From Thiorhodovibrio litoralis (GTDB lineage Bacteria > Pseudomonadota > Gammaproteobacteria > Chromatiales > Chromatiaceae): DNA of 64,000 nucleotides. Below the pieces are notes generated by a model that saw nothing but the letters and a program-made list of their open reading frames with translations, made no database searches and was not told the DNA's origin. Positions within the stretch are counted from its first letter, which is position 1. Each line of letters starts with the position of its first letter. The stretch is taken from assembly GCF_033954455.1 (NCBI RefSeq), contig NZ_CP121473.1:868001-932000 (forward strand), in the 5' to 3' direction. A program made the position numbers and the translations under genes. Positions 47,784 to 61,088 of the stretch are shown piece by piece.

Positions 47784-50513
47784 TTAGGGCACGCTCTCCG
47801 GATTGCTTGGATTCGAGCCTGCATCGAGTTCGTCGCCATCGTAAAAACCGTCCTCGTCTCGGTCGAGTGCCATTCGCTCGCCCGAGCCGGGTGGGACACA
47901 TGTGAAGGTTATTACATTGCCTGGAGGAGCAGTGAGCCTCAATAGTCGGGACATTGTGAGCGGTGGTTCATGAAGCCTGTCGCTATAAAATAGGCTGTCA
48001 TCCCGCATGAGCAGTCCTCGCGACTGCCCGCCAATGGTACCTTTCGCAATCAGCTCGCATTCGCCGGCAAGAGATCTTGTCTGCAGTAGTCGTAAACGTC
48101 TAGTCCTCTCGGACATTGGAGCTTCTGAATTCCACTTAAAGGTCATCTGCTGGCCAACGATGGGAAAGAGATTGCTGTCAGAAGCCAGGACGAACGAGCT
48201 AACCTCTCTGCGTTCGCGCTCCGCGACTAAGGGGTTATTAGAGAATACCCCCACGAAGCTGCGGTGAAAATTCGGTAACGTATCGCGTGCGCCGTCGTGA
48301 GTATAGCCAAATCCACGCACCACCCCTCCTACATTCGGGGCATCGGCAAGATCGTCGCTCACGCCGCCTCCGTTAAAGCCAACCTTGGTGTACATGTTGC
48401 GAAGATGAGGCACCTTGATTGCCTGTTCCTGTGGTGTATCCCGAACAGTGTTTCCACCCAGGCCATTTGTTCCGAAAAACCCCTCACTGCGGTCGAAAAC
48501 GTGGCAGTCGTTGCACACGAGTCCATTAACGTCGGGGCGTTCGAAGAAGATCTCCGCTCCGGCAGCTTCGTCTTCCGTTAGGCTGTTGTCTAATGCGCGC
48601 ACTGGATTGGGTGGGTAGCTTATTTCAAGAGCGAAGTTAGTAAACGCCAGCATCTCTTCATCGCTCAGCGGTTCGGTTCGCCCGAGCAGATGTTTGAAAG
48701 CCCCGTTAAACGCCATGAACGCCGCTTCCTCGTCCATCGGGTCGCCACCGGTGCTACTACCACCGGTGCGGTCACCTCTCCAGTGCATGGGACCTTGCCC
48801 AGCCATTCCCCGCAGGCTTTGGGTGGTCATGGGGCCTTTCATCGGGTGGAAGTCTGTGGCAGGTGGGTTACCAACGTTCACGGGATTGGGGTTTTCCTCG
48901 ACTTCCCCATCAGGATTGCCCAGATCCCACCCCAAATGATCCGTGTCACCAAAAATGTGGCAGCCAGCACAGGAAGAGTCCCCGCGGCTAGAGGTATAGG
49001 AGGCATCGTATAGGAATGGGCGCCCTTTGACGACTTCAGGGGGCTCTGGGTTAAACATCGCTACGCTACCGACCTCAACACCGGGGCTGGTGGAAAGGTC
49101 GACAATCGCGATAGCATTGTTGAAACGGGTGAGTACATAAAGCCTTTTTCGAAGCTCGTCCAACGCGATGCCACTGGGGCCACCCCCGCTTAGCAGTATC
49201 TGTTTCTCTGCGCTGGGCAGGAAGGTGTCAGCTTCAAGCGCTTCAGCATCGTAGACAGCAATTTTGCTGGAACCAAAGGCTGCCAAATATAAGGTCGCTC
49301 CATCATTGCTGAGGACCATCTGGGTGGGGGTAGCGACGCTGATTGCATTTTCTTGGGGAGTACCGGGAAACGTTTCGTAGTTGATGTGCTTGTTCAAATG
49401 TCGGGTTTTCACAGTGCTTCCCTGAATGACGGAAATCCGGTTTTCGATGAAGTGACCGCGTACCGTGCTACCACCTCCACCAGGTCCTTCGAAGCGAATA
49501 TGATTTCTCGCTTCGATGTTAGAGACGTAAATGGCACCAGTTGCAGGATTCGTCACCATATTGAACAGTGTCGTTCCCACTCCTCTCACCCGACTGTTGT
49601 CGAGTTCCACCGGCGGATCGGCCATGGCGTCGATCGCGAAGACGTCAAAGTCGGGTAAGCTCATCCGCACGTTGTCACTCCACACCTTGCCGCCAGCATC
49701 CACCCAATCGGTTCCGTTGTATTTGATGATCTGACCAACATCGGGTGCTGGTACATCGTCAACATTCATCAGTGGGGGCGGCATGCGTCCATCTACGGTG
49801 TCGGCACCGACTACTGAAGTCTGATTGCCAGAGTGGAGTATGCCTGCGTAAACGACGCTGCCCTCTGCATTGGTCGCTAGGGGGCGAGGTGTATCGCCAA
49901 ACAGTGTGACGATGTCCGGCTTCTCCTGCGGATTCTTTGCATCAATCACCCAAACATCGGCTCTGCCTTCGATATCAAGCGGCTTGTATTCGAGAGGAGA
50001 ATTTTGCCCCCGATGGGCAGTCGTAACGAATGCCTTTCCGTTGTTTGGCCCAGCAAACACGATATCCCGAGGCTCGTCGCCGACATGAACCGTTTCGATC
50101 ACGACCGCCTGGACTGGCTGGGGGGCTCCGACGGGGGGGAACCACACAATACTCACACTATCGGACAGATGATTCACGACCCATGCTTGATTGTCGGAAA
50201 ATGCAGCAACTGCCACTGGCTCCATGCCAACGGGCACCGAGTAAGCATGCTCGAGCCCTTCGGCGGTTATGTCGTAAATCTCCAGACGGTTATCAGGGGT
50301 ATTGGTGACCAACAGCCGCTGACCATTCGGAGTCAGGACGATAGGCCGCGCCTGCCCCGATTCGAACGTCACAAAACTCTCAGCATGGATCGAGCCAGCG
50401 CACAGGCCGAGGGAAATAAGGAGAAAAAACTGGATAAAAAGACCGGGAAGCCCTTGCTGAACGGGAGCCAGCGATGGGAGTGGTTTTATCAAATTACGAG
50501 TTGTCGACTTCAT
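47784..50513 (-). CDS. Secreted beta-propeller / di-haem cytochrome c peroxidase-like protein
   Basis: 909 residues with a signal peptide (about 24-44, FFLLISLGLCAGSIHA). Residues 45-480 form a YVTN/lactonase-type beta-propeller (RPIVLTPNGQRLLVTNTPDN, PTQMVLSNDGATLYLAAFGS). A MauG/CCP-like di-haem domain follows, with CAGCH near residue 514 and CNDCH near 666, plus the bridging PHLRNMYTKVGFNGGG segment. The C-terminus (DRDEDGFYDGDELDAG) is a calcium-binding EF-hand-like motif of thrombospondin type 3 style. It probably works outside the inner membrane in peroxide reduction or cofactor/protein oxidation. Base composition is noticeably less GC-rich than in flanking genes, which hints at transfer. 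It stands alone. Confidence 0.85.
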   Translation of the reverse strand: MKSTTRNLIKPLPSLAPVQQGLPGLFIQFFLLISLGLCAGSIHAESFVTFESGQARPIVLTPNGQRLLVTNTPDNRLEIYDITAEGLEHAYSVPVGMEPVAVAAFSDNQAWVVNHLSDSVSIVWFPPVGAPQPVQAVVIETVHVGDEPRDIVFAGPNNGKAFVTTAHRGQNSPLEYKPLDIEGRADVWVIDAKNPQEKPDIVTLFGDTPRPLATNAEGSVVYAGILHSGNQTSVVGADTVDGRMPPPLMNVDDVPAPDVGQIIKYNGTDWVDAGGKVWSDNVRMSLPDFDVFAIDAMADPPVELDNSRVRGVGTTLFNMVTNPATGAIYVSNIEARNHIRFEGPGGGGSTVRGHFIENRISVIQGSTVKTRHLNKHINYETFPGTPQENAISVATPTQMVLSNDGATLYLAAFGSSKIAVYDAEALEADTFLPSAEKQILLSGGGPSGIALDELRKRLYVLTRFNNAIAIVDLSTSPGVEVGSVAMFNPEPPEVVKGRPFLYDASYTSSRGDSSCAGCHIFGDTDHLGWDLGNPDGEVEENPNPVNVGNPPATDFHPMKGPMTTQSLRGMAGQGPMHWRGDRTGGSSTGGDPMDEEAAFMAFNGAFKHLLGRTEPLSDEEMLAFTNFALEISYPPNPVRALDNSLTEDEAAGAEIFFERPDVNGLVCNDCHVFDRSEGFFGTNGLGGNTVRDTPQEQAIKVPHLRNMYTKVGFNGGGVSDDLADAPNVGGVVRGFGYTHDGARDTLPNFHRSFVGVFSNNPLVAERERREVSSFVLASDSNLFPIVGQQMTFKWNSEAPMSERTRRLRLLQTRSLAGECELIAKGTIGGQSRGLLMRDDSLFYSDRLHEPPLTMSRLLRLTAPPGNVITFTCVPPGSGERMALDRDEDGFYDGDELDAGSNPSNPESVP

Positions 50514-56767: not shown

Positions 56768-58102
56768 CTATTCCATCATGTCATTGATGACGTTCTTGAA
56801 CCAGCTATGGGCGTAGCTGACCTCGCGCTTGCGGATCTCCGGGCTGGCGTTGGCCGGTGAGACGCCGCCAGAGCCGGGGATGGGCTCAATGGTGTTGGTG
56901 TCGCTGTCGAGGCTATAAACGGCGGCAACCGAGATACCGAAGTCTTCGCCGACGACGCTGTAGCAGGTGTTGACGAAGGTGGGGTCGCCCGGCTCCTTGT
57001 CCTGAAAGCGGGCGATAATGGCCGCCGCGGCGACCTTGGCCTGCGAGTTAGCGGCATAGGCGGACTTGGGCATTTTCGAGGCACTGGAAGCGTCGCCCAG
57101 CACATAGATGCCGGGGTGGCGGCTCGATTCGAAGGTGAGTTTGTCCACTGGGCACCAGTCTCCATCCACCAGGTCGGCGGCGAAGGCAATTTCCCCCGCT
57201 TTTTGCGGCGGGATGATGTTGACCACATCGCCTTGAAATTCCTCGACCAGGCCGATCAGGGTGCGCGTTTGCGGATCGAGTTCTTCCACCGCACCTCCCG
57301 CGGCCGCGCTGATCCATTGAATCATGCTGTTGTCGGTGCCGTAGCCGTAGAGCTTGGTCCAGCCCTCGATGTACAGCCCCTGCTTGGAGAAGGCGTCCTT
57401 GGCGTCGAGGATGGTGATCTTGGCCTTCGGCTTGTGATGCTGGCAGTACATCGCGATTTGCGAGGCACGCTCATAGGGGCCGGGCGGACATTTGAAGGGG
57501 TTGGGCGGGGCGACGATGATCACATGCCCACCCTCGGGCATGGAGGTGAGCTGGTTGCGCAGCAGTTGGGTTTGCGGGCCGGCGAACCAGGCATGGGGGA
57601 TACTTTCGTTGGCGATCTCTTCGTTGTAGCCGGCGATGGCACCCCATTTGAAGCCGACGCCGGGGGAGACCACGCAAGCGTCATAGTCGAAGCGGTTGCC
57701 GCTCTTGGTTGTCACCTGTCGGGTGTCCGGGTCGATCCCGACGACCCAGTCCTGCACCACGTCGACACCATAGCCGCGCAGGCCGTCATAGCCGAAGGTC
57801 AGCGATTGCAGCGTGCGCTCGCCACTGAGCACCTCGTTGCTCATGAAGCAGGAGGTGTAGTCCGCTTCCGGCTCGATCAGGGTCACGTTCAGACTCGGAT
57901 CGAGCTTGCGCAGGTACTTGGCCGCGGTGCAGCCACCCACGCCACCGCCGACGACCACGACCCGGCGCACGGCCCCCAGGACAAGGGATGGAAAGCCCAG
58001 GGTGCCTGCGATGGTGCCCCCCAGTGTGCCACCTAGTGTGCTAAGCGTGGCGGTCGCACCGCCGGCGATGCCCAGAAAGGTTCTGCGTTTCATCTCAGTC
58101 AT
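56768..58102 (-). CDS. fccB: Flavocytochrome c sulfide dehydrogenase, flavoprotein subunit
   Basis: Periplasmic FAD subunit that oxidises sulfide and passes electrons to the haem subunit FccA. It has 444 residues. KRRTFLGIAGG is a twin-arginine signal. The FAD motif is VVVVGGGVGGCTAAKYL (about 48-64). Cys85 in YTSCFMSNEVLSG matches the cysteine that covalently holds FAD in the Allochromatium vinosum enzyme. Cys205 (FKCPPGPYERAS) and Cys317 (WCPVDKLTFESS) match its redox-active disulfide. GAGGAG 7 bases before ATG at 58102 decides the start. It overlaps the end of fccA by 8 bases, so the subunits are translationally coupled. Confidence 0.95.
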   Translation of the reverse strand: MTEMKRRTFLGIAGGATATLSTLGGTLGGTIAGTLGFPSLVLGAVRRVVVVGGGVGGCTAAKYLRKLDPSLNVTLIEPEADYTSCFMSNEVLSGERTLQSLTFGYDGLRGYGVDVVQDWVVGIDPDTRQVTTKSGNRFDYDACVVSPGVGFKWGAIAGYNEEIANESIPHAWFAGPQTQLLRNQLTSMPEGGHVIIVAPPNPFKCPPGPYERASQIAMYCQHHKPKAKITILDAKDAFSKQGLYIEGWTKLYGYGTDNSMIQWISAAAGGAVEELDPQTRTLIGLVEEFQGDVVNIIPPQKAGEIAFAADLVDGDWCPVDKLTFESSRHPGIYVLGDASSASKMPKSAYAANSQAKVAAAAIIARFQDKEPGDPTFVNTCYSVVGEDFGISVAAVYSLDSDTNTIEPIPGSGGVSPANASPEIRKREVSYAHSWFKNVINDMME

Positions 58103-58721
58103 GATTCGGCTCCTCGGCATCGATGTCGGACTGGCTCGCGTAGTAATTGAGCAGCGCCGGGATAGCCTCGTCCCCAGCTTCGTCAATCGCGGCGTCGACT
58201 TTGCGCTTCATCTTGCGCGGCCATTTCCGTTTGCCGTCGATGAAGTCCTCCATGGTGAAGTGCAGATAGGGCATCCATTGCCCGGCAAGGGTGCCGGCAT
58301 CACCGGGGCGGCCGCCGTTCTCGTGGCATTTCTCGCAGTACTCATCGTGCAGTTGCGCGCCCTGCTCGGCCAGCGCGGCGTCGTAGTCTTGTGGGAAGAC
58401 CTGCAAGCGCTGACTGGCGAAGAACCAGCCCATGTCCTTGAGCTGCTCGTCGCTGTAAGCCTTGGCGATGCGGTTCATGATGCTGGGGTTGCGCTTGTCC
58501 TCCCGGTAGGCCGTCATGGCGTCGACAAAGACTTCAGGGTCCATCCCGGCGATGGCGGGCATGGATGGCCCGACACTGGAACCATCGGTGCCGTGACAGC
58601 CGGCGCAGGTGAAGGCCATAGCCTGTCCGGATGGCCCGGCCGCGCCGGTCGCCGGCAGGGCGACGAGCGCGGCGAGCAGCAGGTTGCGAAGGTGCTTCGG
58701 CGTGTTTTTGTAGTTTTTCAT
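58095..58721 (-). CDS. fccA: Di-haem cytochrome c subunit of flavocytochrome c sulfide dehydrogenase
   Basis: A 208-residue exported cytochrome with a signal peptide (about 10-28, LLLAALVALPATGAAG) and two CxxCH haem sites: CAGCH at 39-43 (class I cytochrome start FTCAGCHGTDG) and CEKCH at 129-133. The two-domain layout is that of FccA, which takes electrons from the FAD of FccB. It lies between a multihaem cytochrome c-cytochrome b gene (14 bases upstream) and fccB (8-base overlap), all on the minus strand. Without fccB next to it the family call would be only di-haem c-type cytochrome. Confidence 0.9.
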   Translation of the reverse strand: MKNYKNTPKHLRNLLLAALVALPATGAAGPSGQAMAFTCAGCHGTDGSSVGPSMPAIAGMDPEVFVDAMTAYREDKRNPSIMNRIAKAYSDEQLKDMGWFFASQRLQVFPQDYDAALAEQGAQLHDEYCEKCHENGGRPGDAGTLAGQWMPYLHFTMEDFIDGKRKWPRKMKRKVDAAIDEAGDEAIPALLNYYASQSDIDAEEPNHD

Positions 58722-58735
58722 CGTCTCAATCCCCC

Positions 58736-60727
58736 TCAGTTTGGCGCGGTGACCAGGCCGATCAGCACCAGGGTGAGCAAGGCCAGGCCAGCCATAATCA
58801 GCACCGTGGTGATGAACGAGGCCGCCAGCGAGGCGCGGCGCGACGGACGCTGAACCAGATGTTTCTCGAGTTCGCCGCTGGCCACCAGCCGGTCGTATTC
58901 GAGTCGATGGTCGTGCTTGAACTCATCGATGGGGATCACGCCGGTGAAGATGGCAGTGCTCATCGGGAAGCGCTCGGGGCGGAAATGCACGTTAAAGAAG
59001 TGCACCGAGTTCAGGAAGATAGCCGCCAGGAGCGCCTCTTCGGCATGCACCAGATTGGCGATATTGAAGGTCCAGCCCGGCAGGATCAGGGACGTCTTAT
59101 CCGGCATGAACAGGATCAGGCCCGAAGTGCCGATGACTGTGGCGCCCCAGAAGGGTGCCCAGTAGTCGAACTTCTGCCAGTAGGTCCAGTGGCTGAACTC
59201 GGGACGCGGTCCGCGGCCGAGGAACCACTTGAACATGTCTTTCAGGTCCTGCCAGTCCTTCCAGTTCGGCAACAGGGAGGTGCTGCCGAACCACTTGAAG
59301 GTCTTGCGATTGCGCCAGATATTGCTGGTCGCAATCGAGAGGTGGACGAAGAAGATCCCCAGCCAGATGGTGGCAGCCGTGCGGTGGATGATGCCCTCCA
59401 TGCGGATGCCGCCGATGAAGCCCACCACTGCCTTGGCCCAGGCGGTATGGGAGAACAGCAGCGTGGTGCCGGTCAGGATCAGTGTCATGGTGGCGACGGC
59501 GAACAAGAAATGAATCCAGCGCCAGACGACCGGGAAGCGGCGGAAGTAAACCACGTCAGGCGTGCTCAGGTCTTCAATGAAGCCCTTGCCCTGGATGCGT
59601 TCCATGACCTCGCGGTAGAGCCACAGGATCACGTGGACCCAGAAGAAGCCCATGACCGCGAAGATCAGGGTGTCCATAAAGACCTTGAAGCCCCACAGGC
59701 CCGGGTAATTCTCGCGGTCGTGGGCGTCGCCATGGGGCCAAAAGCTGAGGAAGTTCTCGTTGGCGTCCTCATGGCACTGGCGGCAGTTCTCCAGGCGATT
59801 GTTGGCGTGGATTTCCGACGTCGGGTCATCCTCGCTCTTGACCAAATGCCCGCCATGGCAGTCATGGCACTTGGCCGCTGCGGTGTAACCCAGGCGGTGG
59901 ACCTGGCCGTGGTAGGACGCAAAATAGGTGCGTTGGGCCTCCTCGTGACAGTTGCCGCAGTTCTCGGTGATCTGCAATTTGGCCTTGTCCGTCTCGGGGG
60001 AGGCAATCTCGTGGGTGGTATGGCAATCGGAGCAAACCGCCGCCTCGCTGTCGCCTTCCTCCATCACCGCCTTGCCGTGATCTGAGGTGCGATAGTCTGC
60101 GAGTTCCTGTTCATGACAGGCACCGCAGATTTCGGGGTTTTTCAGCCGGTGCTCGGCGCGCTGGATGCTGCCAAGTTCGCCGATGTTGTGCCCGTCGTGG
60201 CAGTCGTAGCAGGTGGCGTTGGTGCGCGACTGGTCCAGTTCACTGGGCTTGGCGTGGACCGAGTGCATGAAGTTGTCGATTTGCTCGTTGACAACCTCAA
60301 GGCGCGCGTACTTGCCGTCGGGATCATCCTTGTGCGCTTCCCATGTCTCGCGGTGGCACTCGATGCAGCCGACAATGACGGACGGCGCCTTGCGATGCGG
60401 GACCCGATCGATGGTGACGTGGCAACTGGTGCACTTCTGCCCGCCATGAACGCTGGCCTTGATCTGCCCGCTGTCGACCAATATCTCCACTGGTGAGCCG
60501 TCGTCGCGCACATCCATCGGATGCTGCTCATCGCCGTGGCAGGTCAGGCAACGCTCGTTGGGGATGATGCGCTTGCCGGTCTCAGGATCGAAGTGGTCGA
60601 TCATGAGCTCCGTCGTGGCCCCTGGGGCAGGGTCCGTCGTCGTGCTATAGGCGACGGGATGGATGATAAGACCGAGCAGCGCCAGCCATAGGCAGGCCAC
60701 TCGTTTGGTCTCGATGCGGCTTGGCAT
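58736..60727 (-). CDS. Nonahaem cytochrome c fused to a membrane cytochrome b
   Basis: 663 residues. A signal segment (about 10-28) leads to a periplasmic part with nine CxxCH motifs starting at residues 60, 99, 121, 173, 201, 232, 257, 287 and 315. The C-terminal half (350-660) has about six membrane spans with histidines at 406, 448, 462, 561 and 577 placed like b-haem ligands of cytochrome b561/formate-dehydrogenase-gamma-type proteins. It should exchange electrons between periplasmic redox proteins and the quinone pool. A strong GGAGGAG ribosome-binding site precedes the ATG. fccA starts 14 bases after its stop and fccB follows, so I infer that it links sulfide oxidation to quinone. I know no named family with this exact layout. 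Confidence 0.88.
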   Translation of the reverse strand: MPSRIETKRVACLWLALLGLIIHPVAYSTTTDPAPGATTELMIDHFDPETGKRIIPNERCLTCHGDEQHPMDVRDDGSPVEILVDSGQIKASVHGGQKCTSCHVTIDRVPHRKAPSVIVGCIECHRETWEAHKDDPDGKYARLEVVNEQIDNFMHSVHAKPSELDQSRTNATCYDCHDGHNIGELGSIQRAEHRLKNPEICGACHEQELADYRTSDHGKAVMEEGDSEAAVCSDCHTTHEIASPETDKAKLQITENCGNCHEEAQRTYFASYHGQVHRLGYTAAAKCHDCHGGHLVKSEDDPTSEIHANNRLENCRQCHEDANENFLSFWPHGDAHDRENYPGLWGFKVFMDTLIFAVMGFFWVHVILWLYREVMERIQGKGFIEDLSTPDVVYFRRFPVVWRWIHFLFAVATMTLILTGTTLLFSHTAWAKAVVGFIGGIRMEGIIHRTAATIWLGIFFVHLSIATSNIWRNRKTFKWFGSTSLLPNWKDWQDLKDMFKWFLGRGPRPEFSHWTYWQKFDYWAPFWGATVIGTSGLILFMPDKTSLILPGWTFNIANLVHAEEALLAAIFLNSVHFFNVHFRPERFPMSTAIFTGVIPIDEFKHDHRLEYDRLVASGELEKHLVQRPSRRASLAASFITTVLIMAGLALLTLVLIGLVTAPN

Positions 60728-61088
60728 CGCAACTCCTCCTAAGATTTGTGCTCCCCGTCACCCCGCGGAATGACTCCCACGAGACTCAAGGAAGTCCCAG
60801 CGTTTTTTCTGGTTGATAATTATCGTTTCCACCTTGGCGAGGTGACTTTAGCACTTCTCACAAGGGATAGGGAATGCAAACGACGGCCGCCTTGGTCGCT
60901 GTTTTGCAAGAAGGGCAAGTCAAGGAGCCTGACGTGCCGGGGTGGTTGCTAGACAGCGAGTGAGAGGGCGGCGTTTCGCCGCTGCTGCCGAAGGCGCGAG
61001 TCGCCGCGCGCTGAGATCTATCGACAAATGCTTTAAGATCGTCAATCAAAGAACCACACGCGGCGCCCGCTGCTCTTGGAGGATATGG
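60728..61088. other. 361-base divergent spacer between the cytochrome operon and the DUF302 gene
   Basis: No gene is visible. It holds a GATAATTATC palindrome (60815-60824, see separate entry) and a short hairpin GCGGCG-TTT-CGCCGC at 60968-60982. Promoters for both directions should lie here. Confidence 0.45.
60813..60826. promoter_or_regulatory. FNR/Anr-like palindrome upstream of the cytochrome-fccAB operon
   Basis: TTGAT-AATT-ATCGT matches the FNR half-site TTGAT fully and the second half ATCAA at three of five positions. The core GATAATTATC is a perfect 10-base palindrome. It is centred about 92 bases upstream of the multihaem cytochrome start codon, a credible place for an activator site. 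A Fur-like reading is also possible. Confidence 0.4.

Follow-up and report, generated by a model that had tools for sequence, protein, structure and literature searches.

The cytochromes CbcL (of Geobacter sulfurreducens), MtrH and MtoC have been described as proteins with 3–23 CX2CH motifs in their N-terminal part (nine in CbcL), six membrane helices and a HydC/FdnI-like cytochrome b domain with conserved histidines, and they are proposed, on grounds other than measurement, to act in iron respiration and iron oxidation as quinone oxidoreductases of the inner membrane (PMC6295460). MtoC of Gallionella ES-2 is a nonahaem protein (PMC5566968). For the sulfide dehydrogenase FccAB, soluble c-type cytochromes have been described as acceptors in vitro, and its role in vivo is called 'still not resolved' in the Allochromatium vinosum genome paper (PMC3368242). 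Here we describe a window, by which we mean the whole stretch of 64,000 nucleotides analysed (C1:868001-932000 of the complete 5.47-Mb chromosome of Thiorhodovibrio litoralis, genome G000), in which a gene for a protein of the CbcL/MtrH/MtoC architecture, referred to as the cbcL-like gene, is followed on the minus strand by fccA and fccB. The pairing of the cbcL-like gene with fccAB is real and conserved, there is a strong case for a functional coupling of their products, and it is rather probable that the three genes encode a sulfide:quinone electron conduit. We found no description of a CbcL-like cytochrome paired with fccAB in the open-licence papers searched, and this combination of two known families is apparently unreported. 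An earlier inspection of the window, the sequence-only reading, knew of no named complex of this composition; this holds for the pairing with FccAB, which is apparently new, but not for the cytochrome, whose fusion type was already known.

The CbcL-like protein starts with what by eye is a Sec-type N terminus and joins a nine-haem cytochrome c domain (approximately residues 57–341) to a six-helix, FdnI-like di-haem cytochrome b domain (approximately residues 342–660). The sequence-only reading had claimed nine CxxCH sites and about six cytochrome-b-like spans, and both were recovered: the first cysteines of the nine CXXCH motifs are residues 60, 99, 121, 173, 201, 232, 257, 287 and 315, and an AlphaFold model contains six long predicted helices (342–378, 400–424, 441–472, 516–540, 552–573 and 630–660), which represent a prediction and not a topology test. 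Cytochrome_C7 was found above its cut-off and Ni_hydr_CYTB slightly below (E 3e-6). When the fusion was aligned with its relatives (35 rows including the window protein, with identity down to 37%), the haem half was found to contain exactly nine further invariant histidines, namely H94, H111, H158, H180, H217, H239, H273, H294 and H332, and two of the rows (L114 and L115) had eight CXXCH by pattern. Among 54 closer sequences (alignment A3) a tenth haem-half histidine, H307, is also invariant. Nine motifs and nine extra invariant histidines fit nine bis-histidine c haems, and such ligation is probable as judged from these alignments. Together with the recurring gene order described below, the same motifs and histidines show that the fusion is not a product of chance.

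The sole significant PDB fold match of the fusion was FdnI, the membrane-bound cytochrome b subunit of formate dehydrogenase-N (1kqf_C, E 2.6e-4, TM 0.73 by target), and the blocks of the membrane half of the model mostly have pLDDT values of 70–85. FdnI was again the sole significant PDB match of a b-domain profile built from 26 rows (whole-chain E 3.5e-5); with a profile of the entire fusion, only haem-domain and chance-like matches to PDB sequences were obtained (best E 8e-5). FdnI has four helices and is an electrogenic quinone-reducing subunit. In the profile alignment the columns of its His18, His57, His155 and His169, which we take to be the ligands of the two FdnI haems, correspond to H406, H448, H561 and H576 of the fusion, all four of which are invariant in both the 35-row and the 54-row alignments, so that the paired haem-ligand histidines for which the sequence-only reading advised a check are indeed present. 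The b domain thus shares the FdnI fold and its four histidine columns, but the fusion has two more predicted helices and a nonahaem domain that replaces the iron–sulfur partner. Lysine and arginine number 20 in the 128 residues of the loops assigned to the cytoplasm versus 2 in the 27 residues of the periplasmic loops, which is weak evidence for the topology because the periplasmic loops are short. A second FdnI-like cytochrome b of 282 aa, which matches PF01292 and has no haem c domain, is encoded elsewhere in the chromosome (L166, C1:2083926-2084705), with separate multihaem stretches beside it.

With nine CXXCH motifs, six predicted helices, an FdnI-like b domain and conserved histidines, the fusion has the CbcL/MtrH/MtoC architecture, and we therefore rejected the idea that it is a novel kind of protein. 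Its assignment to the family is based on this architecture. The described members sit with porin-cytochrome or other c-cytochrome genes, whereas the lineage found here sits with fccAB; a genetic link to genes of extracellular electron transfer is frequent in the family but no requirement for it. No porin-cytochrome genes were seen among the open reading frames (ORFs) of the window in the cluster, nor do any recur beside it among the neighbour genes of relatives, and in the whole genome DmsE/MtrA gave no match above the cut-off (best 39.7 versus 192.2 bits; other kinds of conduit were not searched for). On these grounds we discarded the possibility that the cluster is part of a porin-cytochrome conduit. 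A plasmid-borne origin of the fusion gene was likewise rejected, as a search of 72,556 plasmid records at E 1e-20, from which records near G000 may be left out, gave no match.

The sequence-only reading had also identified FccA and FccB with intact cysteines, and this is borne out. FccA matches 1fcd_C (E 1.2e-45) and with its two CXXCH motifs is the di-haem cytochrome subunit. FccB matches 3vrd_B (E 3.4e-143), contains FCSD_central (151.1 bits) and FCSD-flav_bind (92.3 bits; cut-offs 27 and 26) and a Tat-like RRTFLG motif, and its Cys85, Cys205 and Cys380 align with cysteines of 3vrd_B; presumably one of the three links the FAD and the other two are the redox pair. The two proteins resemble classical FccAB (A. 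vinosum 1fcd; 3vrd) in their intact haem sites and aligned cysteines; however, classical FccAB is described as soluble (PMC3368242), whereas this FccB type accompanies a membrane c–b cytochrome in the family sample. Sulfide:quinone oxidoreductase (SQR) is a haem-free, monotopic flavoprotein of one chain. We rejected the possibility that FccB is a disguised SQR, since SQR chains match it at only E ~1e-12 and FccB chains at ~1e-143 and a di-haem partner gene is present. If the conduit reading is right, the overall reaction would be the same as that of SQR, but SQR is a single flavoprotein acting alone, in contrast to FccB with its partner.

The sequence-only reading would have counted a triplet found only here, with its genes on separate transcripts, against its interpretation; instead, the gene order recurs across many genomes. 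Searches of 146 genomes of the window's family for the fusion protein and for FccB gave a close fusion orthologue (75–100% identity) in 22, and in 21 of these fccA and fccB lie downstream on the same strand, in one case (G004) with an insertion of ~1.5 kb between fccA and fccB; in the 22nd (G054) the contig end falls inside fccA. An FccB at least 67% identical to that of the triplet is present in exactly those 22 genomes plus G028, the next FccB being 61% identical. G028, which belongs to the same genus, carries a remnant (L055) in which approximately the first 199 residues of the fusion abut the last 370 of fccB; missing are the 3' end of the cbcL-like gene, fccA itself and the beginning of fccB. 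Neighbours outside the triplet vary between genomes, close kin excepted. Outside the family, 25 of 369 genomes of the class match the fusion at E 1e-60. Among them, G307 and G334 (fusion 76–78% identical) have the triplet, and in G426 and G526 fccAB is divergent. Two genomes, G179 and G180, have two triplets each (~76% and 61–62%; L139 with L147, L142 with L148). Tubeworm symbionts (fusion 57–60%) have an ankyrin protein nearby and, where inspected, also a di-haem cytochrome, with no fccAB in at least 6.5 kb upstream and 3–7 kb downstream.

A scan of named genome records, in which the best 80 of 145 relatives' loci were kept and which overlaps with the family and class genomes, gave fccB downstream on the same strand in 49 of the 80 loci, divergent fccB in 11, and fccA followed by the contig end in 2. 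Same-strand carriers include Thiocystis minor, Thiocystis violacea, Thiorhodococcus minor, Thiorhodococcus mannitoliphagus, Sedimenticola selenatireducens, Thiodiazotropha clam symbionts, Thiohalomonas, Rhodocyclaceae, Hydrogenophilus and Rhodospirillaceae, and the closest named relatives by fusion protein are Thiorhodococcus and other Chromatiaceae. The divergent arrangement is found in records of Thiobacillus, Gallionellaceae, Tepidiphilus and Thiotrichales, and other records of the last three groups have no fccB beside the fusion gene. The pairing with fccB spans gamma-, beta- and alphaproteobacteria.

Trees were built for FccB (104 of 122 rows after removal of near-copies) and for the fusion (103 rows, from which near-copies, short pieces and sequences containing stops had been removed); both are quick searches with SH-aLRT support only, for which the program warned of long branches, and rows whose flank was too short received the label unknown. 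In the FccB tree, 36 rows of gammaproteobacterial triplet FccB make up a starred clade (34 of them have the partner and 2, including G455, are of unknown setting), a separate and distant starred clade unites 18 alpha- and betaproteobacterial FccB that have this kind of partner too, and four gammaproteobacterial FccB with a divergent partner are placed elsewhere again. At least three changes of the same-strand label are required by the starred branches. In the fusion tree, 52 of the 59 FccAB-linked forms, from gamma-, beta- and alphaproteobacteria, fall into one starred clade of 55. As the FccB lineages are scattered and the fusion forms are mostly in one clade, it is mostly one cytochrome lineage that kept an FccAB partner while the FccAB lineage changed.

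Based on the recurrence of the triplet and the four invariant histidine columns of the b domain, the FccAB–quinone conduit put forward in the sequence-only reading appears to be the best reading of this locus. FccB would oxidize sulfide in the periplasm and FccA would receive the electrons, both steps being known for the family, after which the nine c haems of the CbcL-like protein would relay them to its two b haems, where quinone would be reduced. In an FdnI-like layout, H448 and H561 would hold the haem on the periplasmic side and H406 and H576 that on the cytoplasmic side. With such a layout the site of quinone reduction would be close to the cytoplasm, and electrons on their way to it would pass across the membrane, which could add to the proton-motive force, and the conduit is therefore possibly electrogenic, unlike SQR. 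Redox values favour electron flow from sulfide to ubiquinone and oppose the reverse, and for the sulfide-to-quinone direction we regard the case as moderate.

Several observations weigh against this interpretation. CbcL of Geobacter has been proposed to be a quinol oxidase, that is, to work in the opposite direction (PMC6295460), and A. vinosum fccAB mutants oxidize sulfide at rates similar to the wild-type (PMC3368242); the fccAB mutated in that organism seems to be of another type than that of the triplet. Residues ~183–319 of the fusion model have pLDDT values below 50, and the mean of the whole model is 64. Ten of the 80 named-record loci have no fccB within at least 6.5 kb upstream and 3–7 kb downstream, and eight could not be judged. 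G455 encodes an FccB of the triplet type (69% identity), which groups inside the triplet FccB clade, and an FccA, with no fusion match at E 1e-60. In G311 (L196, Methylophaga-like), a 69–71% orthologue of the fusion has no fccAB in the 7 kb downstream, and the contig begins 167 bases upstream of it.

The other settings of FccAB bear on the same question. G000 carries three fccAB copies: besides the triplet, there is one that follows genes for a NapC/NirT tetrahaem cytochrome and for an ankyrin protein (L164, C1:376000-388000), and one in the vicinity of an octahaem cytochrome gene (PF13447), from which an NnrS-family gene separates it (L165, C1:1878000-1891000). Among 22 non-triplet FccB loci, made up of these two and 20 that were hand-picked and not random, the order NapC/NirT–ankyrin–fccA–fccB is found in 13 (L164, L309, L310, L312–L317, L319 and L323–L325), an octahaem cytochrome lies near fccAB, in either orientation, in four (L165, L318, L320 and L321), and in five no multihaem partner of the three kinds is found close by. 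The triplet FccB is 51–57% identical to 19 NapC-linked FccB. The NapC/NirT clusters share with the triplet that fccAB follows a multihaem cytochrome belonging to a quinol-linked family; the differences are that the cytochrome is tetrahaem and not a nonahaem–cytochrome b fusion, and that an ankyrin protein is included. NapC/NirT tetrahaem cytochromes have a single membrane anchor as a family trait. In A. vinosum, Alvin_1092–1095, which encode FccAB, a 4-haem cytochrome and an uncharacterised protein, increased strongly and together on pyrite (PMC11267869), and judging from the gene order and the 4-haem annotation Alvin_1095–1092 may represent the NapC–ankyrin order. NapC/NirT proteins are a family of quinol dehydrogenases (PMC6295460), and since the CbcL-like proteins are proposed quinone oxidoreductases, FccAB seems to be repeatedly tied to the quinone level. 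The assumption of the sequence-only reading that FccAB normally hands its electrons to small soluble cytochromes was too narrow, with 13 of the 22 other loci behind a NapC/NirT tetrahaem cytochrome. A further setting was seen in G455 (L307, C6:1260000-1278000), where the triplet-type FccB and FccA are encoded downstream of ferredoxin-type and nitrate-reductase-delta-like proteins.

We tentatively suggest, as an idea that could well prove wrong, that FccAB in vivo is the catalytic head of interchangeable sulfide:quinone complexes, of which the CbcL-like version, by moving the electrons across the membrane, would build proton-motive force directly from the oxidation of sulfide to sulfur, as SQR cannot, and the NapC- and octahaem-linked ones would be sister versions. 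The pairing offers a testable answer to the long-standing question of the role of FccAB in vivo. Were FccAB linked to the quinone pool through membrane cytochromes of its own, the presence of several isoforms per genome could account for silent single mutants, and energy could be conserved already at the first step of sulfide oxidation. Sulfur oxidation would then be added to the roles of a family that has until now been discussed for iron respiration, and this would apply to purple sulfur bacteria, to symbionts of lucinid clams and to sulfur-oxidizing beta- and alphaproteobacteria.

Fusion relatives at 37–41% identity adjoin octahaem cytochromes (PF13447) in 17 of 18 fetched loci, the exception being L118. 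In L045, L046 and L050 the octahaem cytochrome, an ammonium transporter (PF00909 checked in L046 only) and the CbcL-like gene stand in a row, which hints at a quinol-driven, ammonium-forming reductase. Such octahaem cytochromes are candidate reductases, and they, the transporter between them and the CbcL-like gene in three loci, and the proposed quinol oxidase activity of CbcL itself (PMC6295460) would fit a module running in reverse, in which the CbcL-like protein oxidizes quinol and FccAB acts as a periplasmic sulfur or polysulfide reductase, an electron sink for stored sulfur in the dark. The G000 chromosome also encodes two photosynthetic reaction-centre genes (Photo_RC), and in the dark stored sulfur can serve purple sulfur bacteria as an electron sink. 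We nevertheless consider this explanation unlikely: FccAB is known as a sulfide oxidase, ubiquinol is far too oxidizing to reduce sulfur without energy input, and the triplet carriers include lucinid symbionts and other presumed sulfide oxidizers.

Still more doubtful is that FccAB and the nonahaem protein form the inner part of an extracellular or solid-phase electron uptake route for mineral or polymeric sulfur, like the one proposed for A. vinosum on pyrite. The family members MtoC and MtrH have been linked to extracellular electron transfer (PMC6295460) and the response of Alvin_1092–1095 to pyrite would agree with such a route, but the cluster has no porin-cytochrome gene in it or recurring beside it, the genome gave no DmsE/MtrA above the cut-off, and the haem counts reported for A. 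vinosum include no nine-haem cytochrome (PMC11267869). Least likely of all is a mere neighbourhood, in which FccAB passes electrons to small soluble cytochromes and the cbcL-like gene encodes a separate, only co-regulated electron hub, since the partnerless FccB of G455 and the five FccB loci without multihaem partners are outweighed by three observations: except for the deletion remnant, this FccB type and the cbcL-like gene co-occur exactly in the family sample, the pairing has two gene arrangements, and it was retained through a change of FccB lineage.

The coordinates of the triplet are given in Table 1. The sequence-only reading had described a minus-strand run with junctions of +14 and −8 bases, exactly as the ORFs have it, and the median gap between the cbcL-like gene and fccA is also 14 bases across 94 triplet loci (genomes in both collections being counted twice).

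Table 1. Features of the cbcL-like–fccA–fccB locus (window positions)
Feature	Position	Strand	Description
cbcL-like gene (CbcL/MtrH/MtoC-like)	58736..60727	minus	ORF, 663 aa
fccA	58095..58721	minus	ORF, 208 aa; 1fcd_C match, two CXXCH
fccB	56768..58102	minus	444 aa counted from ATG; FCSD domains, 3vrd_B match
cbcL-like/fccA junction	58722..58735	minus	14-base gap, purine-rich (by eye)
fccA stop/fccB start overlap	58095..58102	minus	8 bases, ATGACTGA
Region upstream of cbcL-like gene, expected promoter place	60728..60941	minus	

A longer ORF for fccB with a TTG start begins at 58186 on the minus strand. A sigma-70 promoter scan reported no site in the region upstream of the cbcL-like gene (60728..60941), and by eye an AGGAGG-like site lies before this gene at ~60740-60735. 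The triplet is flanked by genes for polyketide-cyclase-like, PAS, DUF302 and PspA-like proteins (the PspA-like match being below the cut-off), which belong to families unrelated to the triplet. Elsewhere in the window, at 47784-50513 on the minus strand, a 909-aa protein is encoded that weakly matches a lactonase propeller and ends in a TSP3-like repeat below the cut-off; two CXXCH motifs can be seen in it by eye.

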